This document shows positions 18,039 through 32,241 of a DNA stretch of 50,504 nucleotides, in pieces. The translations under genes were made by a program, and so were the position numbers. Source of the DNA: Salibacterium aidingense DSM 18341 (GTDB taxonomy: Bacteria; Bacillota; Bacilli; Bacillales; Marinococcaceae); the NCBI RefSeq assembly GCF_000429685.1, contig NZ_AUCI01000024.1, positions 1 through 50,504 of the forward strand, read 5' to 3'. The notes under the pieces were generated by a model. It saw nothing but the letters and a program-made list of their open reading frames with translations. It had not been told where the DNA came from and made no database searches. Each line of letters opens with the position of its first letter. The first letter of the stretch is position 1.

Positions 18039-18114
18039 AAATACCTCCAGGAATAATTTTTCAATTTTAACTCTTTATTTATTCTAACAGATTTTCCGAT
18101 TAAATAAGAAGTAA

Positions 18115-18131
18115 AACTCACTGAGCGAGTT
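18115..18131. promoter_or_regulatory. Palindromic IclR-type operator upstream of iclR paralog 1
   Basis: AACTCACTGAGCGAGTT is an imperfect 17-bp palindrome built from the same CTCA/GAGT half-sites that occur in the operators of the catabolic promoters. It lies 77 bases upstream of the iclR start and about 60 bases from the TRAP-operon -35, so it could serve both directions. Confidence 0.6.
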
Positions 18132-18191
18132 ATTATGACAACACACTGCCCTCCACTGCCCTTTGTTCTTTTTCCTAAATATTAATTCATA

Positions 18192-18220
18192 TTGACTGTT
18201 ATCTGAAAAGTTGCTATACT
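18192..18220 (+). promoter_or_regulatory. Sigma-A promoter of the TAXI/TRAP operon
   Basis: TTGACT (18192-18197), a 17-base spacer, then TATACT (18215-18220). Transcription should start near 18227, immediately before the operator at 18233. Confidence 0.8.
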
Positions 18221-18230
18221 TTCATTACTA

Positions 18231-18260
18231 AATGAGTTAGTAATCTCACTAAGCGAGTCA
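18231..18260. promoter_or_regulatory. Three-half-site IclR operator, TRAP operon
   Basis: TGAG at 18233, CTCA at 18245 and a variant CGAG at 18254: the pattern TGAG-N8-CTCA-N5-TGAG shared with three other promoters in this region. It lies just downstream of the -10 box, a blocking position. Confidence 0.75.
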
Positions 18261-18297
18261 GAAATGATAATTTTTACTAAACAAAGGGGGTTTATAG

Positions 18298-18354
18298 ATG
18301 ATTATAAATAATAAATCGACTCATTTACATATTTTGAAAAATTCAGAAATCTAG
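18298..18354 (+). CDS. Possible 18-codon leader peptide in the TRAP operon leader
   Basis: ATG at 18298 follows a strong AAAGGGGG site by 7 bases and runs 18 codons (MIINNKSTHLHILKNSEI) to TAG at 18354. It lies in the long 5' leader, between the operator and the solute-binding gene. The composition is not strikingly biased, so classic amino-acid attenuation is not indicated. Whether it is translated is unknown; the ribosome site is the only positive evidence. Confidence 0.4.
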   Translation: MIINNKSTHLHILKNSEI

Positions 18355-18371
18355 TTTTATTTTTTGACTTA

Positions 18372-18385
18372 TGAAAGCGCTATCT
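18372..18385 (+). promoter_or_regulatory. CcpA cre box in the TRAP operon leader
   Basis: TGAAAGCGCTATCT matches the cre consensus TGWAANCGNTNWCA at 13 of 14 positions. It sits about 145 bases downstream of the predicted start, where CcpA could act as a roadblock. A sibling, TGAAAGCGTTATCT, lies before the hydrolase/LLM operon. Confidence 0.7.
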
Positions 18386-18423
18386 TATTACTAAAAACAC
18401 ATTCTATCATAAGAGGTGAAAAT

Positions 18424-19563
18424 ATGAAAAAAATTTTGCGAAGGTTATTGATTACAGGAGGAGCTTTTCTTCTATTATCTGCATGCGGGGAAGGAAGTGA
18501 CGCCGGTAACAGCGTAGAAGGGGGGACGGACCAACAAAACGGAGAAGAAGCAGCAGGGGGTGAAAGTGAACCATTAGAGGAAGGTCAAACACCAGATGAA
18601 AGTGGAGATACTTATAGTTTCGCTACTTCTCCTCAGGGAACTTCTGTTAATGCTATCGGAAATGGTTTGGCCAGCATGATTAATCAAAACTCTGATGTTT
18701 CCACTTCTATCCAGCCCTATGCCGGTATAAACGCATGGCTTCCACTATTAAATGAAGGGGAAATTGATTTAGGTGTAGACAGCGCACCAGATATGATCTT
18801 TGCTTATCAAGGAAACGAAGAAGTTGGTTATGATGAATCTCTTGATGAATTACGTCTTATCGTCCGGGGAAATTTTATCAAAGCAACCGGCTTAGCTGTT
18901 CGAGAAGACTCTGATATTGAAAGCGTTGCTGATTTGGAAGGAAAACGTGTCGCTTCGGACTTTTCTGGAGCAACAGTAGCTCAGCTTATATCCGAAGCAA
19001 CCCTCTATGCCAACGGTCTTTCCTGGGATGACGTAAACGAAGTGCCTGTTCCTTCCATTGACCGAGGCGTCGAAGGGCTTCAGAACAATCAGCTTGATGC
19101 TACATTTGCACTTGTGCCATCTACGCCGTTAATGCAGGAAGCGCACAGTACTACCGGGCTGAAAGGCTTTGATTTTTTGGATGATTATGGACCGGATGAA
19201 ATTGATAATGTTCCGGATGATGTGTTTAACGAAATTAAAACCCGTATACCTGCGGCACAGATGACCTCCGTTCAACCAGAGGGGTACCTGTCTGAAGAAA
19301 CAACAGCCATCCAATATCCAAATTACCTTGTCAGTTCTACCCATATGAATGGCGAAGATATTTATGAAATGTTGGAGGCGTTATGGGAGCATCACGAAGA
19401 ATTGTATGATGTTCATCCTTGGTTAAAGACCTGGAACCCTGAACAGATGTTTGATGAATCGCCCGAGATTCCATACCATGAAGCAGCTGTTGAATTCTTC
19501 AAGGATCAAGGTATTTGGACGGATGAAGCACAAGAAGCACAAGATGAGTTAACAGGAAATTAA
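18424..19563 (+). CDS. TAXI-family TRAP transporter solute-binding lipoprotein
   Basis: Extracytoplasmic receptor that delivers substrate to the TRAP permease encoded next. The 379-aa precursor has a lysine/arginine-rich start (MKKILRRLL), a hydrophobic segment and a lipobox LLLSAC, then a Gly/Glu-rich tether. The mature part has TAXI features: YSFATSPQGTSVNAIGNGLA at the N-terminus, then GEIDLGVDSAPDM and VADLEGKRVASDFSGA. I start it at 18424, where AGAGGTG precedes the ATG; the frame is open further upstream without a ribosome site. Known TAXI substrates include glutamate and other carboxylates; this one is not known. The context suggests an aromatic or heterocyclic acid. Confidence 0.9.
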   Translation: MKKILRRLLITGGAFLLLSACGEGSDAGNSVEGGTDQQNGEEAAGGESEPLEEGQTPDESGDTYSFATSPQGTSVNAIGNGLASMINQNSDVSTSIQPYAGINAWLPLLNEGEIDLGVDSAPDMIFAYQGNEEVGYDESLDELRLIVRGNFIKATGLAVREDSDIESVADLEGKRVASDFSGATVAQLISEATLYANGLSWDDVNEVPVPSIDRGVEGLQNNQLDATFALVPSTPLMQEAHSTTGLKGFDFLDDYGPDEIDNVPDDVFNEIKTRIPAAQMTSVQPEGYLSEETTAIQYPNYLVSSTHMNGEDIYEMLEALWEHHEELYDVHPWLKTWNPEQMFDESPEIPYHEAAVEFFKDQGIWTDEAQEAQDELTGN

Positions 19564-19594
19564 CTTTCATCTACTTACTAATATGGGGCTTGTC

Positions 19595-19642
19595 AAGGCT
19601 GATACATGGAAGCGGTAACCAGCCGTTTCCATGTGTAGCCTT
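19595..19642 (+). other. Intercistronic hairpin between TRAP receptor and permease genes
   Basis: AAGGCT...ACATGGAA...CGG pairs with CCG...TTCCATGT...AGCCTT around a short loop. There is no T-run. A hairpin after a receptor gene commonly protects its mRNA and gives more receptor than permease. Confidence 0.6.
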
Positions 19643-19677
19643 CGATTCCAATATTAAAGTGGGAGGTCATCATTCTT

Positions 19678-21711
19678 ATGGCAGATAATCATTCTCAACA
19701 TTCAACCTCCAGCCCACCTAAAGAAGCAAATCCTGAACAAAAAAGATATCGAACGTTCGATAATACATTCATGAAGATATTAGTGAACTGTTCTTTATCC
19801 TTAATACCCATTGTCGGTATATTATTCGTACTGAACATCCATCAACAACTAGGGCTGGTCTTTTTTAACGAACAATATTTTGGTTTGTTTTTTGCGCTTA
19901 TTTTGTTCGGAATATTTCTAGTCATTCCAGCAGCAAAAAATGCTTCCTTGACCAAAGTTCCTTGGTATGACTGGCTGCTCGCCTTAAGCGGACTTGTCGT
20001 CGGAGGTTATCTTCTGATTTATTACCCGGATATTATGTTAATGATCGGCCAGGTTACCACGGAACGCTTCATTTTATGTGTCATTGCTGTACTTCTTGTT
20101 TTAGAAGCGATACGCCGTATGCTGGGGATTATTTTATTATCGATTGTTGCTGCCTTTATTTCCTATGGTTTTCTGGCCCCATACTTACCGGGAGTCCTAA
20201 GAGGAAGCGGCACGGCGCCGGATCAACTATTCAATTATTTATACCTAGATCCTAATGCCATGATGAGTATGCTCGATTTAGCCTCCACCATTGGTTTAGT
20301 CTTTATCCTGTTTGGACAAATTTTAATTTACATGAAGGGCGGGGATATTTTAAACGATATTGCCTTATTCCTCTTCGGCCGGTTTCGCGGCGGACCTGCT
20401 AAAGGATCCATTCTCGGTTCCACCTTTATAGGCTCTGTCACTGGTAACCCCGTTTCCAACGTCCTGCTCACAGGAAATGTAACGATCCCTTTGATGAAAC
20501 GTAACGACTTTAATGGCACCCAGGCAGGAGCGGTAGAATCGGTAGCTTCCACCGGGGGACAGATCATTCCTCCCGTTATGGGGATTGCAGCATTTATCAT
20601 AGCAGAAAGTTTAGGGGTCCCTTATGTAGAAGTGGCTATTGCAGCCATTATTCCAGCTATTCTTTATTATTTATGTTTATTTTTACAGGTGGACTTTATT
20701 GCTGCGAAACGAGGGCTGGATGGGTTAAAGTCTTATATGCTCCCTTCCTTAAAGGGAATCTTAAAAGTCGTTTGGCTCATCATCCCTTCCTTTGGTTCGT
20801 TAGTATATTTCCTGTTCATCGTGGGCTACACTCCTGCATTATCAGGTATGTACGCTTCTATCATCGCTTTCTTCACATTGGGGGTTTTCCAATCCTACAT
20901 CCGTAAACAGCTGTTTACGAAGTTGTTTGACATCCTTTTTGGGACCGGAAAGTTAATGCTTGAAATTACGATTGTATTAGCTGCTGCCGGCATAGTTATG
21001 GGAGTAACTGGTATTACAGGGTTAGGTTTCAATATTGGCATGCTCTTGCAGGGGCTAGCTGATTATGGATTGTTGACTCTTCTTATCGTAAGTGCTGGCG
21101 TTTGCATCATACTAGGCATGGGTATGCCCTCTGTTGCGGCATATGCCGTTGTTGCTGTGCTAGTAGCACCTACTCTCATCGATTTAGGGGTGCAGCCATT
21201 AGCAGCTCACCTTTTTGTCTTCTATTTCGCGATTGTGTCAAACTTCACGCCCCCTATAGCCGTGGCCTGTTTTGCAGCTGCTCCTATTGCTCAGGAAAGT
21301 CCGCATAAAATTGGTTTCCGTGCTATGCAGCTGGGTTTAGTGGCTTATATTGTGCCATTCCTGTTTGTATTTGCTCCAGAACTATTAATAAGTGTAGATG
21401 GGAGCCAATCATGGACTGCCACCGGAATCACATTAGTAACTGCAGCATTTGCCTGCTATCTGCTTGCCATGGGTGTGGAAGGGTATTTATTTGATCACTT
21501 GACCACCCCTAAAAGATTGTTCCTGTTCGTGATTGCAGGTTGTTTATTTTTCCCTTATTCCATTTGGGAATATAGTTGGATTTTGAACTATTCTGCTTTC
21601 ATTATTGGAATTCTTTTCATTATTAGTGAGTGGAAATTCAGAAATAAAGAAAAAGACTATCAACCGGCCGATCCCTCTGAAAACTATGGTCTCCAAAAAG
21701 ATCAGCCATAA
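19678..21711 (+). CDS. Fused TRAP transporter permease (DctQM fusion, TAXI type)
   Basis: Integral membrane permease of the TAXI-TRAP system. At 677 aa it has the small 4-helix DctQ-like part (about 30-175) fused to the 12-helix DctM part, as is usual for TAXI transporters. DctM landmarks are GGPAKGSILGSTFIGSVTGN, STGGQIIPPVMGIAAFI, LGMGMPSVAAYAVVAVLVAP and FYFAIVSNFTPPIAVACFAA. Transport is expected to be ion-coupled (Na+ or H+). GGGAGGT lies about 10 bases upstream of the ATG. It follows the receptor gene and is followed by a second iclR. Confidence 0.92.
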   Translation: MADNHSQHSTSSPPKEANPEQKRYRTFDNTFMKILVNCSLSLIPIVGILFVLNIHQQLGLVFFNEQYFGLFFALILFGIFLVIPAAKNASLTKVPWYDWLLALSGLVVGGYLLIYYPDIMLMIGQVTTERFILCVIAVLLVLEAIRRMLGIILLSIVAAFISYGFLAPYLPGVLRGSGTAPDQLFNYLYLDPNAMMSMLDLASTIGLVFILFGQILIYMKGGDILNDIALFLFGRFRGGPAKGSILGSTFIGSVTGNPVSNVLLTGNVTIPLMKRNDFNGTQAGAVESVASTGGQIIPPVMGIAAFIIAESLGVPYVEVAIAAIIPAILYYLCLFLQVDFIAAKRGLDGLKSYMLPSLKGILKVVWLIIPSFGSLVYFLFIVGYTPALSGMYASIIAFFTLGVFQSYIRKQLFTKLFDILFGTGKLMLEITIVLAAAGIVMGVTGITGLGFNIGMLLQGLADYGLLTLLIVSAGVCIILGMGMPSVAAYAVVAVLVAPTLIDLGVQPLAAHLFVFYFAIVSNFTPPIAVACFAAAPIAQESPHKIGFRAMQLGLVAYIVPFLFVFAPELLISVDGSQSWTATGITLVTAAFACYLLAMGVEGYLFDHLTTPKRLFLFVIAGCLFFPYSIWEYSWILNYSAFIIGILFIISEWKFRNKEKDYQPADPSENYGLQKDQP

Positions 21712-21800
21712 AGAGATGAATTTTTAACCCGGCCCTTGTTTCCTTTTGTTAAGCTGCCGTGCTTATATTATATACCAAACCTGGCAGAGGGTTGATCAAA

Positions 21801-22607
21801 ATGAGAGAAATCAATGCAAATCCCATACGTGCTGTAGAGCGGAGTATCACCGTTTTAGAAGCTTTTACGATGAATAAGGGAAAATTGAGCTTAGACGAGG
21901 TGGTTTCTTTTACCAATATTCCAAGGTCTACCGTATATCGGATTTTATGTACCTTGGAAATCAATGGGATGCTGGAGTTTGACGAAGAAGACCAACGTTA
22001 CCGGCCAGGCCTTAAGCTTGTTGAAATAGGAGTCTTCCTTTCGTCATCTTTAGATATTTATCAAGAGGCTGAAGACGTTTTGTTAAAGCTTCAGACAGAT
22101 ACGGAACAGACAGTTGTTATGGCACTAGGGGATGAAAAAGACATTATTTATGTTTTTATTAAAGAAAATAATGAAGGCTTAAAATTCTCTTCAGTTGTCG
22201 GACAACGGCGCCCTTATACTTATGGCGTACTCGGCTATACCCTTCTCGCTTTTGAAGACAAAGAAAAAATGGAACGAATTTTGCGTGAAGAAATATCCAA
22301 ACGGACTCCTTACACAGTGACCGACAGAAATGAAATGAAGCACCGTTTTGAAAACATTCGAATTCGCGGACTCTTTACGGAAACGGACGAAACAACCGTC
22401 GGAGTGACCGGTGTGGGGGCCCCAGTGTTTGACAGAAAGAAGAAACCTGCTGCGGCCATTGGAATTGTTGGTCCTTCCATACAATTAAAGGACACTAACC
22501 TTATAAAAGCTGAGAACCTATTATTTCAAGCAGCAGAAGAGATTTCTAACCGTATGGGCTATAAGGGGAATTTCTTCGTGAATAAATCCGTAAAGAAAGA
22601 TAATTAA
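21801..22607 (+). CDS. IclR-family transcriptional regulator (paralog 2)
   Basis: A 268-aa regulator encoded inside the TRAP operon. Winged HTH near 30-60 (VSFTNIPRSTVYRILCTLEI) and IclR effector domain (GLKFSSVVGQRRPYTYGVLG; TTVGVTGVGAPVFD). It is a paralog of the divergent regulator at 17271-18038. ATG 21801 follows AGAGGG; an upstream in-frame start has none. Being inside an operon that carries the shared operator, its level should rise on induction, so the pair could form a feedback loop or recognise different ligands. Which paralog binds which site cannot be told. Confidence 0.88.
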   Translation: MREINANPIRAVERSITVLEAFTMNKGKLSLDEVVSFTNIPRSTVYRILCTLEINGMLEFDEEDQRYRPGLKLVEIGVFLSSSLDIYQEAEDVLLKLQTDTEQTVVMALGDEKDIIYVFIKENNEGLKFSSVVGQRRPYTYGVLGYTLLAFEDKEKMERILREEISKRTPYTVTDRNEMKHRFENIRIRGLFTETDETTVGVTGVGAPVFDRKKKPAAAIGIVGPSIQLKDTNLIKAENLLFQAAEEISNRMGYKGNFFVNKSVKKDN

Positions 22608-22624
22608 TGGGAAAGGAGTCTATC

Positions 22625-23656
22625 ATGAAAGCCATACGTAAAGTAAAACGGAAATATGGCGGGATTGCCATAGAAAATGTCCCTCCTCCCTCTCCTACAG
22701 ACGAGGAAGTATTGATAAAAATAAAAACCGCATCCATTTGTGGGTCAGACCTCCATGCTTACACCTATTCTCCCACTCATCATTACATTACTACCCCAGT
22801 AACAATGGGCCATGAATGTGCTGGAGAAATAATAGAAGCAGGCTCCCAAGTGAAAGATTATCGGATTGGCGACCGGGTAGTGGTAGAGGCAATATTATAT
22901 TGTGGAACGTGCAGCTCCTGCATGGAGGGAAATACCCATTTATGTGATGAATTTGAAGTTCGTGGGATGAAAAGAGATGGCGTATTCACTGAACAAATTG
23001 CCATCCACCCAAAATACCTGCATAAAATACCGAATGATTTACCATTTGATCAAGCCTGCTTGACGGAACCTTTAGCTGTTGCCGCTCATGCAGCTATAGA
23101 CAATAGCCGCATCTCCCCAGGAGACCTTGTTTTAATTACCGGCCCCGGTCCAATAGGCATGTTAGCTTCTTATATAACCAAAGCAATGGGGGCTGTTCCA
23201 ATCATTTCAGGAATAAGTTCGGATGAAGAAGTCCGTCTTCCCTTATTAAGAAAAAGTGGGTTTCATACTATTAACAGCGAAAAGGAAGATATACGTTTCG
23301 TCCTCCATCATTACTTTGACACCAACCATGTCGATGTCGTTTTAGAATGCTCGGGAACCTCTCAAGTTATCCAACCATCTCTGGGAGTGTTACGTAAAGG
23401 CGGGACTCTCACTCTTGTGGGATTATATTCAAAAATCGCTCAAGTCGACTTGACTCAGGCCGTGCGAAAAGAGATTACTATAAGATCCAGTTGCGCCTAT
23501 AAATGGAAAAATTTTGAACAATCTTTAAAGCTTTTAGATTCTAATACATTGGATATCGATAACATCATTGCTCACTACTCAGCAGAGGATGCAGAACAAG
23601 CATTTGAAGATGCTGTAAACAAGAAAGTACCAAAACCAATTTTTCAAATTTCCTAA
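22625..23656 (+). CDS. Zinc-dependent alcohol dehydrogenase (MDR family, sorbitol/threonine dehydrogenase-like)
   Basis: NAD(P)-dependent oxidation of a secondary or benzylic alcohol. The 343-aa protein has the catalytic zinc ligands in ICGSDLH and GHECAGEI, the structural zinc motif CGTCSSCMEGNTHLC, and a GPGPIGML nucleotide-binding loop. I chose ATG 22625 because GGAAAGGAG precedes it by 7 bases; the frame starts at 22607 but that ATG overlaps the iclR stop. It lies between iclR and an SDR gene and probably belongs to the same operon. The substrate is unknown; its place suggests a pathway alcohol. Confidence 0.88.
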   Translation: MKAIRKVKRKYGGIAIENVPPPSPTDEEVLIKIKTASICGSDLHAYTYSPTHHYITTPVTMGHECAGEIIEAGSQVKDYRIGDRVVVEAILYCGTCSSCMEGNTHLCDEFEVRGMKRDGVFTEQIAIHPKYLHKIPNDLPFDQACLTEPLAVAAHAAIDNSRISPGDLVLITGPGPIGMLASYITKAMGAVPIISGISSDEEVRLPLLRKSGFHTINSEKEDIRFVLHHYFDTNHVDVVLECSGTSQVIQPSLGVLRKGGTLTLVGLYSKIAQVDLTQAVRKEITIRSSCAYKWKNFEQSLKLLDSNTLDIDNIIAHYSAEDAEQAFEDAVNKKVPKPIFQIS

Positions 23657-23676
23657 ATTATTTGAGGGGGGATATA

Positions 23677-24516
23677 ATGTCAAACCTACAAGGACAAGTG
23701 GCCTTTATAACAGGCGCTGCACATCCTCTTGGAATTGGACGTTCGATTGCCAATCATCTTGGATCTCAGGGAGCAAAAGTTATTATTGGTGATATTGATA
23801 AAAAATATTTAGAAAGTGCGGTTTATGACCTAAAGAAGCAAGGTATCGAGTCTGATTGTTATGATATTGATGTCAGTCGTTTAGATGAAGTTCAGACTGC
23901 GGTAGAGAAAATTATAAAAGCAGAAAACAAAATTGATATTTTAGTAAACAACGTTGGAGGAACAAGCAAAACAAACAGGGAAAGTGTCTCCGGCGGTGAA
24001 GATACCACCGCAACTTCAAGCAGCACTCCGGTTTTAGGAGTTTCCAATGCCACGCCGGAACAGTGGGAAAAAATTATAAATGTTAATTTAAATAGTGTGA
24101 TTTATTGCTCACAGGCTGTGCTGCCTCATATGAAAAAACGGCAGTACGGACGTATAGTTAATTTCGCATCTGTGGCGGGCCAGCGCGGGGTAAGTAAAAT
24201 TGAATCCTTTACGTCCGGGCCTTACTCTGTTGCCAAGGCAGCTGTTATCGGCCTTACACGGCAGCTTGCTATAGAAAATGCAGAACATGGTATTAATGTA
24301 AATGCTGTCTCGCCAGGATTCGTAAAATCAGCCCGCGGGCAGGCTTTAGATGACTTACCGGAAGAACATAAACAAGCGTTGCTCGAATCAATTCCACAAG
24401 GACGGTTTGCAGAATCAGACGAAGTTGCCAGTGTGGTTCTGGGGCTTTGTACCAGCCAATTTCAATACGTCACAGGACAAACGATTAATGTAAACGGTGG
24501 GATGTATTTCAGCTGA
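23677..24516 (+). CDS. Short-chain dehydrogenase/reductase (SDR)
   Basis: A classical SDR of 279 aa using NAD(P). Seen: cofactor motif TGAAHPLGIGRS (a TGxxxxxGIG variant with an insertion), DID acidic switch near 63, NNVGG, the catalytic Ser in NFASVAGQRG and YSVAKAA (Tyr/Lys), then SPGFVKS. A Ser/Thr/Gly-rich insert (about 105-130) follows NNVGGTSKTN and is longer than usual. GAGGGGGG precedes ATG 23677. It is the last gene of the TRAP operon, followed by a terminator. With the alcohol dehydrogenase it may interconvert alcohol and carbonyl intermediates of the pathway. Confidence 0.88.
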   Translation: MSNLQGQVAFITGAAHPLGIGRSIANHLGSQGAKVIIGDIDKKYLESAVYDLKKQGIESDCYDIDVSRLDEVQTAVEKIIKAENKIDILVNNVGGTSKTNRESVSGGEDTTATSSSTPVLGVSNATPEQWEKIINVNLNSVIYCSQAVLPHMKKRQYGRIVNFASVAGQRGVSKIESFTSGPYSVAKAAVIGLTRQLAIENAEHGINVNAVSPGFVKSARGQALDDLPEEHKQALLESIPQGRFAESDEVASVVLGLCTSQFQYVTGQTINVNGGMYFS

Positions 24517-24528
24517 GCACTTCTATAG

Positions 24529-24568
24529 AGGCTGTTCCTGAGGTTTGCCGCAGGAACGGCCTTTTTTA
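24529..24568 (+). terminator. Terminator of the TRAP-iclR-adh-sdr operon
   Basis: AGGCTGTTCCTG (24529-24540) pairs with CAGGAACGGCCT (24551-24562), one G-U, followed by a T run. Confidence 0.9.
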
Positions 24569-24572
24569 TTTA

Positions 24573-24586
24573 AGATAACGCTTTCA
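24573..24586 (-). promoter_or_regulatory. CcpA cre box before the hydrolase/LLM operon
   Basis: The minus strand reads TGAAAGCGTTATCT, 13 of 14 matches to the cre consensus and one base different from the cre at 18372. It ends 9 bases before the -35 box of this operon. Confidence 0.7.
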
Positions 24587-24595
24587 ACACATATA

Positions 24596-24624
24596 TTGAC
24601 AACGCATAACATCCATGCTAAGTT
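24596..24624 (+). promoter_or_regulatory. Promoter of the hydrolase/LLM monooxygenase operon
   Basis: TTGACA (24596-24601), 17-base spacer, TAAGTT (24619-24624). The operator follows directly. Confidence 0.65.
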
Positions 24625-24635
24625 AAAAGTGAATA

Positions 24636-24668
24636 AAGTGAGATGGTCATTCCATCTAGTGAGATGAA
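24636..24668. promoter_or_regulatory. Three-half-site IclR operator, hydrolase/LLM operon
   Basis: TGAG at 24639 and 24660, exactly 21 bp apart, with a degenerate middle half-site TCCA at 24651. This is the most divergent of the four sites. It overlaps the predicted 5' end of the transcript. Confidence 0.6.
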
Positions 24669-24680
24669 AGGAGAAGATAA

Positions 24681-25445
24681 ATGACTACGGCAGCCAGTTA
24701 TGACGAAAAAACGATTGAAGTAAAAGGCATCAATGTTCGAGTATTGCGGAAAGGAAAAGGGGAACCCCTGCTTTGGTTACACGGTGCAAACGGGGGAGGT
24801 TGGAATCCATTTTTAGAAGAATTATCCGAACATTATGACGTTATCGCGCCAGATCACCCTGGTTTTAACCAGTCGGACGTCTCTAAACAGATTGATTCAT
24901 TTGATGATATGGCTTTTCACTACCGGGATTTTCTCGACGTTCTTCATTTAGAAAGCGTTAACATTATTGGCAGCTCTCTGGGAGCATGGATTGGCCTTCA
25001 ATTTGCTCTGACCCATCAGCACCGCGTCCGCAAACTTGTCCTCTGCAATGCCGCCGGTATTAATATCCCTGGCGTAGAATCCATTGATCCCTTTAATTTG
25101 ACTATTCATCAGCTGTCGGAACACTTATTTTATGACAAAGCTAGAGCCCCTGAAATGCCGCCGTTAGACAACATGCCGCTTGAAATGTTAAAAAACCGCT
25201 CCATGCATGCAAGACTTATGTGGGAAAAAGGCTACGATCCAAAACTTTTATCCCGAGCTGAAGGGGTGCACGTTCCAACCTTGATTATCTGGGGACGAAA
25301 TGATGAACTAATCCCATTAAAGAACGGAGAAAACCTGGAAGCGGCCATGCCAAACTCTACCCTGGTCGTATTTGACGAAACAGGCCACTTGCCTTACATC
25401 GAAAAACGCGAACAATTGATTGAGGAAATTTTAAATTTTATTTAA
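24681..25445 (+). CDS. Alpha/beta-fold hydrolase
   Basis: A 254-aa hydrolase. Oxyanion-hole motif LLWLHGANGGGWN near 30, nucleophile in GSSLGAW (Ser near 97), acid in WGRNDELIP and catalytic His in ETGHLPYIEKRE. It is the size of C-C bond hydrolases, the RutD aminoacrylate hydrolase and the NicD N-formylmaleamate deformylase, all ring-cleavage enzymes. Here it begins an operon with an LLM monooxygenase and a RutB-like amidohydrolase, so hydrolysis of a ring-opened amide, formamide or ester is likely. The substrate is inferred from neighbours only. Confidence 0.85.
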   Translation: MTTAASYDEKTIEVKGINVRVLRKGKGEPLLWLHGANGGGWNPFLEELSEHYDVIAPDHPGFNQSDVSKQIDSFDDMAFHYRDFLDVLHLESVNIIGSSLGAWIGLQFALTHQHRVRKLVLCNAAGINIPGVESIDPFNLTIHQLSEHLFYDKARAPEMPPLDNMPLEMLKNRSMHARLMWEKGYDPKLLSRAEGVHVPTLIIWGRNDELIPLKNGENLEAAMPNSTLVVFDETGHLPYIEKREQLIEEILNFI

Positions 25446-25460
25446 AAGGAGCGATATGTG

Positions 25461-26624
25461 ATGGTTCAAGTGTTTGGTTTTCATTTGATGCCTTATAAAA
25501 ATATGCCTGAAGACTTTAACGAAAATTACAACAGTGCGTGGGTTAATTTTTCGAATTCTCATTTTGACCCGGAAACAGCAAACGAACTGTATAACTCCTA
25601 CCTTGATGAGTTGGAATATTGCGAAAAAATGGGTTTTGATGGAATCGGGGTGAATGAGCACCATCAAACCGCATACGGGTTAATGCCTTCCCCTAACGTC
25701 ATGGCCGGCACTTTAGCACGACGAACAAATCGTGCAAAGATTGCCATACTGGGAAACGCGATTTCTCTTCATCAACACCCTCAAAGAGTGGCTGAAGAAG
25801 TAGCCATGCTGGATGTTATTACAAAAGGACGCATTATCTCCGGATTTGTCCGGGGCATCGGGGCTGAATCATATTCCTTCCGCTTAGACCCGACGAAATC
25901 AAAAGATCGGTTCTTTGAAGCCCACGATATTATTACGCAGGCATGGACAGAAGATGGACCAAGCGCCTATCACGGTGAGCATTACGATGCTTTTAATATT
26001 AACTGCTGGCCAAAACCCTACCAACAACCGCATCCGCCAATTTGGTGCCCATCGCAGGGAAGTAAAGATACGATTAAGTTCGCCGCCGAAAAACGATATA
26101 CCTATTTACAAACCTTCAGTTCGATTAAAAACGTTAAAAAATCTTTTGATGCTTACCGTGAAGCAGCAAAAGAAGCAGGATATACTCCGTCTGCCAGTCA
26201 GTTAGGGTGGTCTGTTCTTACCTATTGCGCTGATACAGATGAAAAGGCATACAGGGAAGCGGAAGAACATGCTGTCTATTTCTTTGATAAATTAATGGTT
26301 ATGCCAAGAGATTTCTTCTTCCCACCTGGTTACGTTCCACCAGAAGCAATGCAGCAGATTTTAAAATCAAAAGCTGGGCTCGGTACACCAGGTGCCTTAA
26401 ACTTTAGAGATCTTGTAGACGACGGATTTATTCTCGTTGGCTCGCCTGACACCGTAAAGAAAAAATTAAAAGAGTATCATAAAGAGCTCGGGTTTGGCGT
26501 TGTAAATATGAATGTTCAGTTTGGAGATATGACGCATGACAGAACGATGAACAATATTAAATTAATCGGGGAAGAGATTATCCCTATGCTTCACCAGCTC
26601 GAAGACCAACCGCAAACCGTATAA
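25461..26624 (+). CDS. LLM-class flavin-dependent monooxygenase (luciferase-like)
   Basis: Uses FMNH2 and O2 to oxygenate a substrate. The 387-aa protein shows the luciferase-like TIM barrel, with FDGIGVNEHHQTAYGLMPSP (about 55-75), TNRAKIAILGNAISLHQHPQ, VAMLDVITKGRIISGFVRGI and QPHPPIWCPSQGS. LLM enzymes open uracil (RutA), pyridine (PyrA) and trigonelline (TgnA) rings, or oxygenate sulfonates. This one looks like a different subgroup from RutA. An FMN reductase is encoded two genes downstream. Either ATG 25461 or GTG 25458 could be the start, both after AAAAGGAG. It is probably the key ring- or bond-opening enzyme of this island. Confidence 0.87.
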   Translation: MVQVFGFHLMPYKNMPEDFNENYNSAWVNFSNSHFDPETANELYNSYLDELEYCEKMGFDGIGVNEHHQTAYGLMPSPNVMAGTLARRTNRAKIAILGNAISLHQHPQRVAEEVAMLDVITKGRIISGFVRGIGAESYSFRLDPTKSKDRFFEAHDIITQAWTEDGPSAYHGEHYDAFNINCWPKPYQQPHPPIWCPSQGSKDTIKFAAEKRYTYLQTFSSIKNVKKSFDAYREAAKEAGYTPSASQLGWSVLTYCADTDEKAYREAEEHAVYFFDKLMVMPRDFFFPPGYVPPEAMQQILKSKAGLGTPGALNFRDLVDDGFILVGSPDTVKKKLKEYHKELGFGVVNMNVQFGDMTHDRTMNNIKLIGEEIIPMLHQLEDQPQTV

Positions 26625-26628
26625 TCAT

Positions 26629-26659
26629 AAGAAGGAAAAGTCCAAAGCTTTTCCTTCTT
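26629..26659 (+). other. Intercistronic inverted repeat after the LLM gene
   Basis: AAGAAGGAAAAG and CTTTTCCTTCTT are a perfect 12-bp inverted repeat with a 7-base loop. No T-run follows, so it is more likely an mRNA-stabilising or partial-termination hairpin than a full terminator. Confidence 0.6.
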
Positions 26660-26697
26660 AATTTAAACATTTAAGGAGACTGAAGGGAGGATAGAGA

Positions 26698-27321
26698 ATG
26701 ACTCTGAAACCGAAGTCCGCTGCTTTGATTATTATTGATGTGCAAAATGACTTTTGTTCGAAAGAAGGGGTAATGGCGCAGGCAGGAAAAGACGTTTCCC
26801 TTGTAAACCGCATACTGCCAGCGATTCACACAGCGATTAATGCCGCCGCAGCAAAAGGCTTGACTATTATATTTGTCCAAACCACTCATGACCCTTTCAC
26901 CACCTCTTCTACATGGGCCGGCCGGGGGCGCAATATTGAGCAATTATGCAGCACCCATTGGGGAAAGGATTTTTACAACATTGATAAAGAGAAAGCAGAT
27001 GTCATAATTAAAAAAAACCGTTACGATGCTTTTATAGAAACGAATCTTGACCTCATCTTACGTTCCCAGAATATTGAGGAGTTAGCCTTTGCCGGGTGTA
27101 CGACAAATGTTTGTGTAGAGAGTACTGTACGGCACGGCTTCATGCTAAATTATGAAACTATTACTTTATCAGATGCTGTTGCAAGCTACACAATATCTGA
27201 ACACGATCACGCATTGTTCAACTTAAACCAGTATTTTGGAAAAGTCATGACGACCGAAGAATATACAGCGTCTGTCGTTAACGAAGTTATCCCGACATTG
27301 CCGGAAAGGAGAAAATCATGA
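26698..27321 (+). CDS. Isochorismatase-family cysteine amidohydrolase, RutB-like
   Basis: Hydrolyses an amide, ureide or carbamate. In the 207-aa protein the catalytic triad is visible: Asp in IIIDVQNDF (Asp14), Lys in KKNRYDAF (about Lys106) and Cys in TTNVCVESTVRHGF (Cys139). The NVCVEST-R-GF-L-Y block resembles RutB, which releases carbamate in the Rut pyrimidine pathway; NicF maleamate amidase is another relative. It lies between the LLM monooxygenase and an FMN reductase, and its stop overlaps the reductase start by 4 bases (ATGA). The gene set is Rut-like, but orthology is not claimed. Confidence 0.85.
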   Translation: MTLKPKSAALIIIDVQNDFCSKEGVMAQAGKDVSLVNRILPAIHTAINAAAAKGLTIIFVQTTHDPFTTSSTWAGRGRNIEQLCSTHWGKDFYNIDKEKADVIIKKNRYDAFIETNLDLILRSQNIEELAFAGCTTNVCVESTVRHGFMLNYETITLSDAVASYTISEHDHALFNLNQYFGKVMTTEEYTASVVNEVIPTLPERRKS

Positions 27322-27866
27322 AAATACTAGGCATCTCTGGCACAATTATTGGCAGTAAAACATGTGCCGTTTTACAAAGTGTCATGGCCAAAATCAAGGA
27401 TCTGTATCCGGAAGCTGAAGTGGAAATCCTGGATCTAAAAGACTACAACCTGCCATTCTGTGATGGCCGGGACCCTTCCGCCTACAGCGGTGATACACGC
27501 ATCGTTATTGATAAGATCACAGAAGCCGACTGCTATATTATAGCAACCCCCATTTTTCAAGCTTCCATTCCAGGAACATTAAAAAATCTATTTGACCTTC
27601 TCCCTGTGGATGCTATGAAACATAAAGTTGTTTCCTTTATCGCAACAAGCGGTACGTATCAACACTATCTTGTTGTTGAAAACCAATTAAAACCGATATT
27701 ATCCTATTTTAAATCCTATACCACTCCGTCTTTTGTATATATCCACAGGGATCATTTTGATACGAATAATAATATTATTGATGAAGAGATCCTAAACCGT
27801 CTACAACGCTTTATAAAGGAGACACTTACTTTTCAACTGACCCTATATAAGTATGAATTACAATAA
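27318..27866 (+). CDS. NAD(P)H-dependent FMN reductase (SsuE/flavodoxin-like)
   Basis: Supplies reduced FMN, probably to the neighbouring LLM monooxygenase. The 182-aa protein has the flavodoxin-fold start MKILGISGTIIGSKTCAVLQ (phosphate loop), ADCYIIATPIFQASIPGTLK and LFDLLP in the order typical of SsuE/MsuE reductases. Its ATG overlaps the amidohydrolase stop. With the LLM enzyme it makes a two-component flavin monooxygenase, as in SsuDE or PyrAE. Confidence 0.87.
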   Translation: MKILGISGTIIGSKTCAVLQSVMAKIKDLYPEAEVEILDLKDYNLPFCDGRDPSAYSGDTRIVIDKITEADCYIIATPIFQASIPGTLKNLFDLLPVDAMKHKVVSFIATSGTYQHYLVVENQLKPILSYFKSYTTPSFVYIHRDHFDTNNNIIDEEILNRLQRFIKETLTFQLTLYKYELQ

Positions 27867-27892
27867 TCCAAAAGCAGGGGGGATTGTTGAGG

Positions 27893-28240
27893 ATGGAAAA
27901 CCACCAATGCTCTGAGACAGAAGAACTCATTCACCTTCCCGATTTATTATTTGTCCGCTATTGTGAGACGGCAGGCTCTATTAACCGCGGTGTGTATAAT
28001 ACTATTGACCATTACTTTTATCAGTGCGGCAGAACCTCTATCATGGAACGCCGCCGGATGATCATTTTGTTTCTGGATGATTTAACTGAAAAACATAGCA
28101 TTCGTTCAAAGGGAAAAATAAACTTTGGGAAACAAGGACTCATCTCCCGACTGGAAACATTTAATCAAATATTTACTCAAGAATTATCCGGCTGCCGTGT
28201 TATTCAATCCAAGGAGGTAAGTGATCATGCCAGTTCATAA
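27893..28240 (+). CDS. Protein of unknown function, conserved in position within the LLM operon
   Basis: I do not recognise this 115-aa protein. It is soluble by composition, with no signal or membrane segment. Parts include DLLFVRYCETAGSINRGVYN, an aromatic stretch IDHYFYQCG and a basic middle (MERRRMIILFLDDL). Three cysteines are not in a CxxC pattern. ATG 27893 is preferred, about 10 bases after GGGGGG; TTG codons at 27884 and 27887 are possible. It overlaps the next gene by 14 bases, so it is tightly coupled to the RibBA-like protein and may work with it or with the monooxygenase. Confidence 0.6.
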   Translation: MENHQCSETEELIHLPDLLFVRYCETAGSINRGVYNTIDHYFYQCGRTSIMERRRMIILFLDDLTEKHSIRSKGKINFGKQGLISRLETFNQIFTQELSGCRVIQSKEVSDHASS

Positions 28241-29204
28241 AAACACAGCTTCTGACAAAAATCAGCTGTCAAAACCTATAGTGCTTTATGATGATTTACA
28301 TTCAAACGTCAGCTATATTATGGGCGGGGAAACGAATCTTGATAAAGAATTAATAAATTTCATGATAAAAAATGCCAAAGGGCTCGTCTCCCTGTGCATG
28401 GAACAAAACATGGCCGAGCATCTGAATCTTTTTCCCATAAAAAAAGATAAAAGAAGCGAGGACCGAAAAGAATTTACGGCTTCCATTGATCATACCGATT
28501 GTACAACCGGGATTTCTGCTTCCGAACGTTTCTACACCATTCATGCATTAACCAGAGAAGATGCTGCTGCTCGTGATTTTCAACGTCCGGGCCACGTTTT
28601 TCCTTTAATAAGTAAACCGAATAAGTTATTAGAACGCGAGGGAATTGCCGAAGCTGCGCTGGTCGCAGCTAAAATTAAAAATCTGGGGGCCTTGGCTGTC
28701 GTTTGTGACATTTTAAATGCACAAGGGGATATAGCCTCATTTCCTGAAGTCCAGCAATTAGCAGCCAGGCACCAAATAGAAATTTACAGATTCAGCTCGC
28801 TCCTTTCTAACCAAATATCCTCTACATCCTGGATTAAAGTGTTAAATGATGAAATAGTCGATAGTCAGCATCATATTGCAGTTTCTGAAATTAAACACAC
28901 TCATTATGGGGAAACATACAAGCTCTATTACAATTACCATGAAATACCTGTCCACCGAGAAGTGGTCTATTATCAACCATGCCAAATTGGAGATTTATTA
29001 AATATGGCTACTTGCTCGTGTAGTCAGCATTTTATAGACTATTATGAGCAACTGATAAAGGGACATATTGGAGCTATTGCATTTGGAAACTTTCATAAAC
29101 CCCAGGCAAAAAAGTGGAAAGACTGGTGCATTCAAAATGCTTTTACCCAGCAAGTCCAAAAAACAGCTGACAAAAAAATGACCGCTGTTCCTGTTTCAAC
29201 ATGA
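28227..29204 (+). CDS. Divergent RibBA-like protein with degenerate RibB active site
   Basis: The 325-aa protein resembles bifunctional RibBA. The first ~210 residues follow DHBP synthase (RibB): VLYDDLHSNVSYIMGGE, GLVSLCMEQN, TASIDHTDCTTGISASERF, RPGHVFPL and AVVCDILNAQG. But the catalytic acidic loop (normally DREDEGD or RENEGD) reads LHSNVS, and the HTEA histidine is replaced (GIAEA). The last ~100 residues resemble the start of GTP cyclohydrolase II. They keep the three zinc cysteines (PCQIGD, TCSC) but stop before the RGQEGRGIGL-type catalytic region. It is unlikely to make riboflavin precursors. AAGGAGG precedes ATG 28227. Its role in a flavin-dependent operon could be flavin binding, regulation or a new reaction. 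Confidence 0.7.
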   Translation: MPVHKNTASDKNQLSKPIVLYDDLHSNVSYIMGGETNLDKELINFMIKNAKGLVSLCMEQNMAEHLNLFPIKKDKRSEDRKEFTASIDHTDCTTGISASERFYTIHALTREDAAARDFQRPGHVFPLISKPNKLLEREGIAEAALVAAKIKNLGALAVVCDILNAQGDIASFPEVQQLAARHQIEIYRFSSLLSNQISSTSWIKVLNDEIVDSQHHIAVSEIKHTHYGETYKLYYNYHEIPVHREVVYYQPCQIGDLLNMATCSCSQHFIDYYEQLIKGHIGAIAFGNFHKPQAKKWKDWCIQNAFTQQVQKTADKKMTAVPVST

Positions 29205-29242
29205 GGTTTTGAGCTGAACCTTTTAAAAATTACCTGATAATA

Positions 29243-29271
29243 TTGACAATTGTCAAAATAGTTGCTAGAGT
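29243..29271 (+). promoter_or_regulatory. Promoter of the FAD hydroxylase gene
   Basis: TTGACA (29243-29248), 17-base spacer, TAGAGT (29266-29271). The GTTGCTA ahead of the -10 is also present in the TRAP promoter. Confidence 0.75.
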
Positions 29272-29278
29272 AATTTAA

Positions 29279-29310
29279 AATGAGATTGCCAACTCATTTA
29301 ATGAGATTAG
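29279..29310. promoter_or_regulatory. Three-half-site IclR operator, FAD hydroxylase promoter
   Basis: TGAG at 29281, CTCA at 29293, TGAG at 29302, matching TGAG-N8-CTCA-N5-TGAG exactly. It starts 10 bases after the -10 box. Confidence 0.8.
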
Positions 29311-29341
29311 TTTATTAAATTGAACAGTTGGGGGCATGGTT

Positions 29342-30568
29342 ATGTCTAATGAAACAGTAGTAATAGCTGGAGCCGGGCCTGTCGGAGTAACCCTCGCGGA
29401 AATTTTAAGTCTCAATGATATCCCTGTACTGCTTCTTGAAAAAGAAGCAGAGCCAAATAGAGAATGGCGTGCTTCCACCTTTCACGCCGGCACGATGGAG
29501 TTGTTAGAACAGGAAACCGGCGTCGTAAATCAAATGTTAGAAAAAGGATTCAAGGCATACAAAGTTCATTACAGGGACAGAAATGATGGTCTCTATGCTG
29601 AATTTGATTTTAGCAAGATTTCAGATAAAACGAATTATCCTTTTCGATTACAATGTTCACAGGCCACGTACGTAAAACTCGTATTCGAACGTTTGAAAGC
29701 GCGTTCAAATGTAGAAGTAGTTTTTAACTCTGAAGTTGTCAATTATGAACAAAACGAGAACGAAGTGAATGTAACTATCCGCACCATGGATGGTGAACAA
29801 ACCTTCACTACTCCATATCTTATCGCTGCCGATGGCGGCAGAAGTACCGTTCGTAAATTAACAGAAGTTGGGTTTGAGGGCTACACCCATGAAGAACGCT
29901 GGCTACTGGTCGGAACTACAGCAGATTTTCATGATTATATCCCAGATTTGGCTTACGTCAACTATATTTCCGATCCAGAAGAATTTTTGTTTATCCTGCG
30001 GGTGCCTGAAGCCTGGAGATTTTTATATCCTGTTGCTCCGGCAACTTCCGATGAAGAAGCGCTTGATCAGGATAACATTCAGAAAACCATTCAAAAAGCC
30101 CTGAATACATCTGATCATTTTCCCATCGTGGAAAATACGATTTATCGTATTCATCAACGAGTGGCAGATCAATTTTACAAGGGAAGGGTCGTCTTGGTTG
30201 GGGATGCCGCCCATTTAAACAGCCCAATGGGAGGGCTCGGCTTAAACAGTGGAATACATGATGCCGTAGATCTAAGCCGACGGCTCGTGCGCCTGTTTAA
30301 ACAAAGAACTGACCGAGAAGCTGAATTAAGGAAATACAGTGAAGCGCGCCAGCGTGTTGCTCTAGATTACGTCAAAGCAATCAGCGAAAAGAACACAAAA
30401 TTGGTAAAGGAACAGGATGAAACGAAGCGGAAGCAATTGCAAAAAGAACTTAGGGAAGTAGCAAATGATCCTGAAAAAGAAAGGGAATGGCTGATTAATT
30501 CTTCCCTGATTGCCAGTGTACAGGATCAGGGAATTGGAAAACCCCCAGAAGAAAAAACGAAAAACTGA
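29342..30568 (+). CDS. FAD-dependent aromatic-ring monooxygenase (flavoprotein hydroxylase)
   Basis: Hydroxylates an aromatic ring using NAD(P)H and O2. The 408-aa protein has the three class A hydroxylase fingerprints: GAGPVGVTLAEIL near the N-terminus, the DG motif AADGGRSTVRK near 165, and GRVVLVGDAAHLNSPMGGLG (GD motif) followed by LNSGIHDA. The C-terminus ends in a charged helical tail. ATG 29342 is preferred over 29336 for spacing to TTGGGGG. A gentisate dioxygenase downstream suggests that it makes gentisate, as 3-hydroxybenzoate 6-hydroxylase or salicylate hydroxylases do. The exact substrate is inferred. Confidence 0.87.
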   Translation: MSNETVVIAGAGPVGVTLAEILSLNDIPVLLLEKEAEPNREWRASTFHAGTMELLEQETGVVNQMLEKGFKAYKVHYRDRNDGLYAEFDFSKISDKTNYPFRLQCSQATYVKLVFERLKARSNVEVVFNSEVVNYEQNENEVNVTIRTMDGEQTFTTPYLIAADGGRSTVRKLTEVGFEGYTHEERWLLVGTTADFHDYIPDLAYVNYISDPEEFLFILRVPEAWRFLYPVAPATSDEEALDQDNIQKTIQKALNTSDHFPIVENTIYRIHQRVADQFYKGRVVLVGDAAHLNSPMGGLGLNSGIHDAVDLSRRLVRLFKQRTDREAELRKYSEARQRVALDYVKAISEKNTKLVKEQDETKRKQLQKELREVANDPEKEREWLINSSLIASVQDQGIGKPPEEKTKN

Positions 30569-30571
30569 GTC

Positions 30572-30606
30572 AGAAACAGCAAGGGTTTATCACTCTTGCT
30601 GTTTCT
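30572..30606 (+). terminator. Hairpin between hydroxylase and aldehyde dehydrogenase genes
   Basis: A 15-bp stem (AGAAACAGCAAGGGT against its near-complement, one G-U) with a 5-base loop ending in a TTTCTTCT tract. It may be a leaky terminator, as the aldehyde dehydrogenase gene 23 bases on has no clear promoter of its own. Confidence 0.55.
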
Positions 30607-30629
30607 TCTAATGAAAGGAAAGATCAACG

Positions 30630-32066
30630 ATGCGGCAAGCTCATATTTGGATTAATAACGAAAATCGCCAGACGGAATCCTATCAGCCGGTTTTTGATCC
30701 GGGTGATTTACAAAACTGTATCGGTGAAACGGCAGTTGGCACAGCACAAGACGTGGAAGACAGCGTAACCGCAGCTGCTGAAGCTTTTAAGCATTGGAAA
30801 CATACTTCATTAGAAGAACGGAAAAATGCATTACTTCAGGGAGTTGTTCATTTAAAGAAAAATATCAATGAACTTACGGAAATCGTATCGTTGGAGAACG
30901 GTGTTCCCTATCAAACAACGAAAGTAGAATTACAGCTTGCCATTTCCAGTATTTACAATTTAACTGATTTAGCTGACTCCTACTTTCAGCCGGAACATAT
31001 AGAAGATGAAGAAAGCTGGGTCCGGGTGGAAAAAGATCCTAAAGGCGTGATTGCAGGTATTGTTCCCTGGAATGCTCCTATCGTACTGACAATGCAAAAA
31101 CTTGTCCCGGCTGTATTAAGTGGCAATACGGCGGTGTTCAAACCTTCCCCTTTCGCCTCTATAGGAACAAGCTCTATTATTCAACTCATGGGGCTCCACT
31201 TGCCTAAAGGAGTGCTAAATGTCGTTCACGGCGATGGTGATGTCGGTGCTGCTTTAACTACTCACCCTCTCGTTCGTATGATTTCGTTTACAGGAGGCGG
31301 AAGAACAGCGAAAAGAATCATGAACACAGCGGCAGATTCTCTAAAAAACATTCATTTCGAGCTGGGAGGCAATGATGCTGCTGTTATATTAGATGATGCC
31401 GATGTAAAGGAAACAGCAAAAATGATTGTGAGAAGCAGCTTTCGAAAAGGCGGACAGTATTGTTTTGCTGTAAAAAGAGTCTATGTTCCCTCTTCCATTT
31501 ATGAATCTTTTTTTAGAGAACTTACCTTTCAACTTCAACAAATAAAAGTGGGCCACCAGTTAACAGAAGGTGCCTTTTTTGGACCAATGAATAATAAACA
31601 GCAGTACGACCATGTCAAAAAACTAATTGAAGAAGCCGAACAGGACGGGGCCACTGTTATCGTGAGCGGACAAAAGCTGCAGCCGGAACAGTGGGAGAAG
31701 GGATATTATCTCCTGCCTGCGCTTGTGAAAGATATAGCACATAACCACCGCCTTGTGGTAGAGGAACAGTTCGGACCGGTATTACCGATCATTTCCTACG
31801 ATGACCTGGACAAAGGCATTGATATGGCTAATGATACAGAGTTTGGTCTCGGCTCATCTGTTTGGTCCAGTGATCCAGATCGCGGCATTCAAACAGCAAA
31901 AAGACTGGAAGCGGGCTTTACGTTTATCAATGGGATTGCCCCATCAAAACTTGGTTTTAAGTACATGCCCTTTGGAGGTGTGAAACAAAGTGGGCTTGGA
32001 CACGAAAACTCTGAATTAGTTTTTCATGAATATGTAAACCACCATGCGATTCATCTTCATAAATAA
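30630..32066 (+). CDS. NAD(P)-dependent aldehyde dehydrogenase
   Basis: Oxidises an aldehyde to its acid. The 478-aa protein has family landmarks IVPWNAPIVLTMQKLVPAVL, FKPSPFASIG, SFTGGGRTAKRIM (cofactor loop), the general-base glutamate in FELGGNDAAVILDDAD, the catalytic cysteine in KGGQYCFAVKRVYVP, and EEQFGPVLPIISYDD. It lies between the aromatic hydroxylase and the ring-fission genes, where a benzaldehyde- or salicylaldehyde-type substrate, or a semialdehyde from ring opening, would make sense. AAAGGAAAG precedes the ATG. Confidence 0.9.
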   Translation: MRQAHIWINNENRQTESYQPVFDPGDLQNCIGETAVGTAQDVEDSVTAAAEAFKHWKHTSLEERKNALLQGVVHLKKNINELTEIVSLENGVPYQTTKVELQLAISSIYNLTDLADSYFQPEHIEDEESWVRVEKDPKGVIAGIVPWNAPIVLTMQKLVPAVLSGNTAVFKPSPFASIGTSSIIQLMGLHLPKGVLNVVHGDGDVGAALTTHPLVRMISFTGGGRTAKRIMNTAADSLKNIHFELGGNDAAVILDDADVKETAKMIVRSSFRKGGQYCFAVKRVYVPSSIYESFFRELTFQLQQIKVGHQLTEGAFFGPMNNKQQYDHVKKLIEEAEQDGATVIVSGQKLQPEQWEKGYYLLPALVKDIAHNHRLVVEEQFGPVLPIISYDDLDKGIDMANDTEFGLGSSVWSSDPDRGIQTAKRLEAGFTFINGIAPSKLGFKYMPFGGVKQSGLGHENSELVFHEYVNHHAIHLHK

Positions 32067-32157
32067 AACAGTCAAATTTGCCAAAAGTACAGCTCTTTGC
32101 TTATGGCCTTAATCCCGTACAAAGGAAAAGTTTATTAAAAATGAAAACCAAATATTA

Positions 32158-32187
32158 TTGACTCTACCAGTAGTTTTTTGGTAACCT
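32158..32187 (+). promoter_or_regulatory. Promoter of the FAH-gentisate dioxygenase operon
   Basis: TTGACT (32158-32163), 18-base spacer, TAACCT (32182-32187). Confidence 0.6.
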
Positions 32188-32197
32188 TAAGTTAATA

Positions 32198-32229
32198 AAT
32201 GAGTTGGCAATCTCATATAATGAGTTGGA
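32198..32229. promoter_or_regulatory. Three-half-site IclR operator, FAH-gentisate dioxygenase operon
   Basis: TGAG at 32200, CTCA at 32212, TGAG at 32221, an exact TGAG-N8-CTCA-N5-TGAG. It lies between the -10 box and the start codon at 32242. Confidence 0.8.
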
Positions 32230-32241
32230 GGGTATCAAACA

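Follow-up and report, generated by a model that had tools for sequence, protein, structure and literature searches.

Operators built of three half-sites (boxes) of alternating direction have been predicted for 32 orthologous groups of IclR-family regulators in a survey (Suvorova and Gelfand 2021, PMC8222616). The survey cites PcaU, PobR and HmgR, regulators of aromatic catabolism, as three-box cases, the third box being needed for the binding of PcaU. We analyzed a stretch of 50,504 nt from Salibacterium aidingense DSM 18341 (contig NZ_AUCI01000024.1; hereafter the window, its genome being labeled G000), in which four neighboring gene groups are likely to serve the uptake and breakdown of an aromatic compound. 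Each group is preceded by a three-box site. In our reading, the four sites are very probably the operators of one IclR-family regulon, in which a regulator encoded within the island (IclR1) would repress until an inducer releases it. The operators are listed here with the relatives, described below, in which corresponding sites occur.

18233 to 18257, forward strand: three-box operator of the TAXI-TRAP operon (TGAGTTAGTAATCTCActaagCGAG); pattern match, with orthologous sites in G028, G155 and G150.
24639 to 24663, forward strand: three-box operator of the hydrolase/luciferase-like monooxygenase (LLM) operon, with a degenerate middle box (TGAGATGGTCATTCCAtctagTGAG); a site lies at the same place in G028 and G155.
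29281 to 29305, forward strand: three-box operator of the flavin adenine dinucleotide (FAD) hydroxylase operon; pattern match, also in G028 and in G155, the latter found blind by pattern.
32200 to 32224, forward strand: three-box operator of the fumarylacetoacetate hydrolase (FAH)-dioxygenase operon; pattern match, also in G028, G155, G778 and G593.

The first search of the window used TGAG-N8-CTCA-N5-TGAG, with up to two mismatches tolerated. An earlier note on this DNA had placed this pattern in four transcription units, with the outer half-sites exactly 21 bp apart. The units are as it stated and the spacing is 21 bp in all four. The pattern is exact at 29281 and 32200, the site at 18233 has one mismatch (the third box is CGAG), and that at 24639 has two (the middle box is TCCA instead of CTCA). 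In total, 10 matches were found in the window, compared to 3.06 expected (standard deviation 1.61) and to a maximum of 7 in 100 shuffles. Besides the four named sites, these are three opposite-strand readings that overlap named sites (18224, 29293, 32191) and matches at 18105 (in the IclR1 leader), 13787 and 24096. A scoring matrix made from eight sites of other families (in G155, G150, G778 and G593) was applied to the window and ranked 18233 (33.0), 29281 (28.6) and 32200 (26.3) as the top three; the maxima of 100 shuffles had a mean of 11.8, the largest being 20.3.

We collected 16 sites from six genomes, representing four families and two orders. Bacillus sp. FJAT-44742 (loci L014 and L024, whose coordinates are those of G028), of another genus in the same family, carries the island in full, including all four sites. 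All four are also present in G155, from another family, where the island is rearranged and the TRAP operon inverted. In G150, which represents a third family, an IclR1 homolog (53% identity) adjoins genes for a receptor, a permease and an aldehyde dehydrogenase; the single site there was found via this homolog and then by eye. The remaining two genomes belong to another order. G593 has one site before a flavin mononucleotide (FMN) reductase gene followed by hydrolase and LLM genes, and a second before an FAH-dioxygenase-hydroxylase-TRAP group, while the site of G778 precedes an FAH-dioxygenase-hydroxylase-aldehyde dehydrogenase group. Gene order varies among the genomes, and the site remains with the pathway genes.

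The 16 sites are of equal length and align without gaps, with the consensus AAA-YGAGWT-N4-AWCTCA-Y-N3-R-YGAR. The three A residues preceding box 1 are present in 15, 16 and 14 of the 16. Positions G2, A3, G4, T6, A11, C15, A16, G23 and A24 are invariant, position 17 is a pyrimidine and position 21 a purine in every site. The three best island sites of G000 share the extra letters TGAGWT-N4-AWCTCA. Three boxes of alternating direction and fixed spacing recur in all 16 (the middle box is degenerate in two), a uniformity favored by the use of fixed-spacing patterns for the collection. When G000 and G028 are compared without gaps, with the promoters in the order TAXI, hydrolase, FAD and FAH, 19, 21, 24 and 24 of the 25 operator bases are kept. 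The corresponding values are 41, 28, 25 and 45 for the 60 bases upstream, and 19, 33, 15 and 20 for the 50 bases downstream. The conservation of the operator is clear of its flanks at the FAD and FAH promoters, and less so at the TAXI promoter.

The analogy to PcaU/PobR-type sites, drawn in the earlier note, is apt. As in the three-box sites of the survey, the boxes alternate in direction, one pair having the group 1 geometry and the other the group 2 spacing (PMC8222616). The core of boxes 2-3 matches the 11-letter group 1 core YCRYW3RYGR exactly in 11 of the 16 sites and with one mismatch in the other five; against the full group 1 consensus, GKTYCRYW3-4RYGRAMC, there are 4-7 mismatches of 17. 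The spacing of boxes 1-2 fits the group 2 consensus TGRAACAN1-2TGTTYCA, with 4-9 mismatches over 16 positions. The differences are of note. The box sequence here is TGAGWT, two sister regulators are present in three of the six islands, and the outer letters, AWC-11-GWT, fall outside the four peripheral variants listed for group 1 (TGT, GTT, WTT and NGT). The site would be a further three-box IclR operator with other outer-box letters, and may coincide with one of the 32 groups of the survey. It would work like a PcaU-type site; the likeness to PcaU and PobR is one of site design only, and orthology is not claimed. GenR, which governs the 3-hydroxybenzoate and gentisate genes of Corynebacterium glutamicum, resembles the present case in belonging to the IclR family and in its link to gentisate catabolism, whereas its motif, ATTCC-N7(5)-GGAAT, has two boxes (PMC8222616).

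The specificity of the site depends on how fully it is written. In its own 4.4-Mb genome, the loose pattern with up to one mismatch gave 11 matches, three of them in the island, compared to five for a reversed control pattern, and the loose four-letter boxes are for this reason weakly specific. Scanning 397 genomes of the order with TGAGWTNNNNAWCTCANNNNNTGAG returned six matches in five genomes. Two belong to the window itself, one lies in G155 directly before the gene for a 76% identical FAD hydroxylase, two are inside open frames and one is at a contig end. With the refined pattern YGAGWTNNNNAWCTCRNNNNNYGAR, exact matching across 12 whole genomes yielded 15 matches. Because two G155 sites match on both strands, these correspond to 13 distinct sites, all of them in islands adjoining an IclR1-type gene and none elsewhere in the 12 genomes. 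With one mismatch there were 46 matches, of which 43 are outside the islands by hand count; because one-mismatch words are 36 times as numerous as exact words at equal base frequencies, about 1.2 exact matches would be expected by chance. Thirteen of the 16 collected sites are exact matches to this pattern, the exceptions being the hydrolase/LLM sites of G000 and G155 and the G150 site. The refined pattern was set after the sites of G000, G028, G155 and G150 were known, and the scan was blind for G778 and G593 only. The FAD site of G155 was blind in the 397-genome scan, and the finds in G155, G778 and G593 preceded inspection of those promoters. The expectation of the earlier note, that genome-wide matches would be limited to the island and its relatives, is borne out for the refined pattern; with the loose letters the specificity is weak.

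Which regulator reads the site? The earlier note mentioned two IclR paralogs nearby; IclR genes are indeed present, and the window has three.

17271 to 18038, reverse strand: IclR1, divergent IclR-family regulator (PF01614, PF09339).
21759 to 22607, forward strand: IclR2, a sister of IclR1 encoded within the TRAP operon and identified by domain search; conserved start near 21801.
35992 to 36762: IclR3, the third of the IclR genes, adjacent to the gene for a BCCT transporter; recognition helix SSIFR.

IclR1 and IclR2 both contain PF09339 (the IclR-type helix-turn-helix) and PF01614 (the C-terminal effector domain) above the curated cut-offs. They form one clade (support 99/97) made of separate sub-clades (96/91 and 100/100), in a tree that omits G593_C7, which has a stop codon, and contains one misread row, G558_C21. 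The recognition helix STVYR[IL]LCTLE is found in all nine IclR1/IclR2 proteins; the nearest other IclR proteins in the tree mostly have KATxYRxLYT or KATxYRLLWT. An IclR1 ortholog adjoins the sites in six of six genomes, and IclR2 is present in three of the six. The distribution of the site tracks that of the regulator. All six genomes found to carry IclR1 have sites (five by the exact scan, G150 with one mismatch), and the exact refined pattern is absent from the six other scanned genomes, five of which do have IclR genes. Where placed in the tree, the IclR genes of these other genomes lie outside the IclR1/IclR2 clade. Searches for IclR1-type proteins at looser cut-offs gave matches in 5 of 397 and 11 of 398 genomes, among which the IclR1 clade is represented, as far as placed in the tree, by G000, G155, G150, G778 and G593 only. 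At E 1e-75, the 39 genomes of the G593 family and the 7 of the G150 family yielded no new IclR1 ortholog. The 12-genome scan left out G648, G695, G548, G597 and G477, which have homologs of 37-42%. Because the site recurs next to an IclR1 gene in five other bacteria, it is very probably the switch of one small regulon, and IclR1 is most likely its cognate regulator. The sites, their geometry, their conservation and the link to IclR1 can be read from the sequences directly.

IclR3 was considered as the regulator and rejected for its different recognition helix. An IclR3 query of the fetched G028 island (L014, L024) found only the IclR1 and IclR2 genes, the nearest IclR3 relative being elsewhere in that genome, and IclR3 is probably not part of this regulon. 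Relatives of the enzymes were also inspected. Four loci with hydroxylase homologs of 56-59% identity (L044-L047, in G782, G624, G616 and G558) lack a three-box site in the vicinity of the gene, and their genomes contain no exact site. The same holds at the genome level for Thalassobacillus (L020) and Alkalicoccus (L015), which have related dioxygenase genes, the L015 contig beginning 132 bases before the gene. The short flanks of the hydroxylase homologs at L042 and L043 have no site; their genomes, G778 and G593, hold sites farther away.

The position of the sites suggests what they do. A SigA-like promoter with an extended -10 element was found 9-19 nt upstream of box 1 in 15 of the 16 sites, in a search made without shuffled control. 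Its form, TTGACA or TTGACT, a spacer of 17 or 18 bp and TG-n-TAnnnT, is close to the SigA consensus. The gap between the -10 box and box 1 is 12, 14, 9 and 12 nt for the window sites at 18233, 24639, 29281 and 32200, so that the 10-15 bases of the earlier note apply to three of them and not to 29281. The site therefore spans from about the predicted transcription start to +30. Because the sites lie after the -10 box, repression is suggested, as the earlier note had it. What we infer beyond this is binding, repression, the effector, the oligomeric state and stoichiometry, and any role of IclR2. The gene for IclR1 diverges from the TRAP operon, and its product would bind the three half-sites, with boxes 1 and 2 bound as the dyad YGAGWT-N4-AWCTCA. 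Box 3 would serve as an outward direct repeat of box 1 at a distance of 21 bp, or two turns, and boxes 2 and 3 would thereby form a second dyad, AWCTCA-N5-YGAGWT. In the absence of inducer, IclR1 on the start region would block initiation or early elongation. The inducer would be an aromatic compound of the pathway, possibly gentisate or its precursor, and the release of IclR1 would switch on uptake, oxidation and ring cleavage together.

Several observations weigh against this interpretation. The site at 24639 has a matrix score of 14.1, alone no better than chance, and an unrelated match at 22973, inside the zinc alcohol dehydrogenase (ADH) gene, scores higher (15.0). In both G000 and G155, the hydrolase/LLM site has a degenerate middle box. 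We accept 24639 on account of its counterparts, at the same place, in the orthologous promoters of G028 and G155; that of G028 has an intact middle box. In the 397-genome scan, the reversed control gave two matches, compared to the three non-island matches of TGAGWTNNNNAWCTCANNNNNTGAG. Spacing variants would be missed, because fixed-spacing patterns were used for the collection. The sample is small, at six genomes, two of them of one family. Two promoters show fair conservation in the 60 bases upstream as well (41 and 45 of 60), and the TAXI operator, at 19 of 25, is barely above its upstream conservation. A good promoter is missing in front of the FAH site of G155. Lastly, it is position that suggests repression, and IclR proteins can also activate (PMC8222616).

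Among the alternatives, the one that survives best is that IclR2, or IclR1 and IclR2 jointly, is the regulator, the two sharing the operator and responding to their own effectors as competing or mixed oligomers. We consider this possible, if unlikely. Ser48, Thr49, Gln51 and Arg52 of TtgV from Pseudomonas putida contact bases (PDB 2XRO, with DNA; PMC8222616). The helix common to IclR1 and IclR2 is likewise of the Ser-Thr-x-x-Arg kind and has S, T, Y and R at these positions when placed over TtgV by hand, with no alignment, and both proteins are kept in the three islands that have the hydrolase/LLM operator. TtgV itself differs in being an efflux regulator with another operator. The residue preceding the helix differs, however (N/K/H versus R), and the loci fetched from G150, G778 and G593 have IclR1 and three-box sites but lack IclR2, which is thus not needed for the site. 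Because these loci keep all three boxes, the third box is independent of IclR2, and the idea that it exists for IclR2 was rejected. Rather doubtful is a more elaborate scheme, in which two IclR sisters that share their predicted DNA-contact residues and differ in their effector domains read one three-box operator via the overlapping dyads 1-2 and 2-3 as alternative registers, and so integrate two chemical signals on one 27-bp site at each of the four promoters.

That the regulator is an activator and not a repressor, as are some IclR proteins, seems improbable. The survey describes repressors, activators and dual regulators in the family, and the title of a GenR reference cited there has it both activating and repressing gentisate genes (PMC8222616). 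Yet in all 15 cases with a promoter the site follows the -10 box, and the promoter closely resembles the SigA consensus. A switch in RNA, with boxes 1-2 and 2-3 as mutually exclusive leader hairpins of an attenuator or a translation switch, would account for sites located past the predicted start, and a six-pair stem can be drawn for each dyad, with 87.5% and 78.1% of the cells paired. However, neither stem 1 nor stem 2 shows covariation beyond shuffles (scores as high came from 134 and 79 of 500 shuffles), 5 and 7 of the 16 sites, respectively, have a broken outermost pair, the distance from site to start codon is variable, and Rfam at gathering scores had no match in 17000-34500. We regard this explanation as very improbable; with no covariation beyond shuffles and no Rfam match, a DNA site fits better. 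Chance repeats or a general AT-rich promoter motif are hardly credible, in that whole-genome scans with the refined pattern pick out IclR1 islands specifically and the matrix scores beat the shuffles, even if 24639 alone is within chance and the loose pattern is weakly specific in its own genome.

With IclR1 as the putative repressor, the island would represent a compact regulon in Bacilli that extends from the transporter to ring cleavage. Our literature search, covering titles and abstract openings and excluding supplementary tables and subscription journals, found no report of this regulon. Among the matches listed, no IclR operator was described for such a pathway in Bacilli, and nothing relevant concerned paired IclR regulators. 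IclR1 and the three-box site are a regulator-operator pair open to direct testing, and the islands with IclR1 alone, compared to those with IclR1 and IclR2, provide a natural case for why some IclR sites have three boxes.

The genes behind the four operators are as follows.

18364 to 19563, forward strand: TAXI-type TRAP substrate receptor (PF16868); the true start is probably downstream of 18364.
19678 to 21711, forward strand: TRAP permease DctM (PF06808).
24681 to 29204, forward strand: hydrolase/LLM group, a presumed operon, from domain searches.
29336 to 32066, forward strand: FAD hydroxylase and aldehyde dehydrogenase (PF01494, PF00171).
32242 to 34206, forward strand: FAH-family hydrolase and gentisate-type cupin dioxygenase (PF01557, PF07883).

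The TRAP group consists of the TAXI receptor, the TRAP permease, IclR2, the zinc ADH and a short-chain dehydrogenase/reductase (SDR). The hydrolase/LLM group encodes an alpha/beta hydrolase, the LLM monooxygenase, an isochorismatase-like protein, an FMN reductase, a 118-aa open reading frame (ORF) and a RibB-like protein. The last two (27884-29204) are both conserved in G028 and G155. The 118-aa ORF has no Pfam match. The RibB-like protein (327 aa) has a 3,4-dihydroxy-2-butanone 4-phosphate (DHBP) synthase domain, below the NCBIfam cut-offs, and is a riboflavin-type enzyme within an LLM/FMN-reductase group. For the FAD hydroxylase/aldehyde dehydrogenase entry, PnpA and HspB are the nearest solved structures. 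The matches of the dioxygenase to NF049978 and TIGR02272 fall short of the cut-offs of these models.

Three further features lie near the promoters, two of them matches to the consensus of the CcpA catabolite-responsive element (cre).

18105 to 18131, forward strand: possible fifth, weaker site in the IclR1 leader, fourth in matrix rank in the window.
18371 to 18385, forward strand: match to the cre consensus in what is probably the TAXI leader; G028, G155 and G150 have one in theirs as well.
24573 to 24587, reverse strand: match to the cre consensus, upstream of the hydrolase/LLM promoter.

The matrix score at 18105 is 18.9, under the largest shuffle maximum. Its boxes 2-3 read AACTCA-N5-CGAGTT (18115-18131), and box 1 is degenerate (TAAG). 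The box 2-3 pair is also found in G155, 48 nt upstream of the IclR1 start, and is not clear near that start in the other four genomes. Autoregulation of IclR1 through this pair is possible. The cre consensus has five matches in the whole window, and a single match therefore means little; the match in the TAXI leader occurs in all four genomes that have that promoter (G000, G028, G155 and G150). The matches suggest, from sequence, carbon catabolite control on top of IclR control. The FAH operator of G155 (L030:2500-2524) lies in a short gap after the aldehyde dehydrogenase gene, without a clear promoter, and is perhaps an operator inside an operon. At the FAD hydroxylase promoter, the -35 region is itself a dyad (TTGACAATTGTCAA, 29243-29256), nearly kept in G028 and G155, and possibly a second regulator site or a coincidence.

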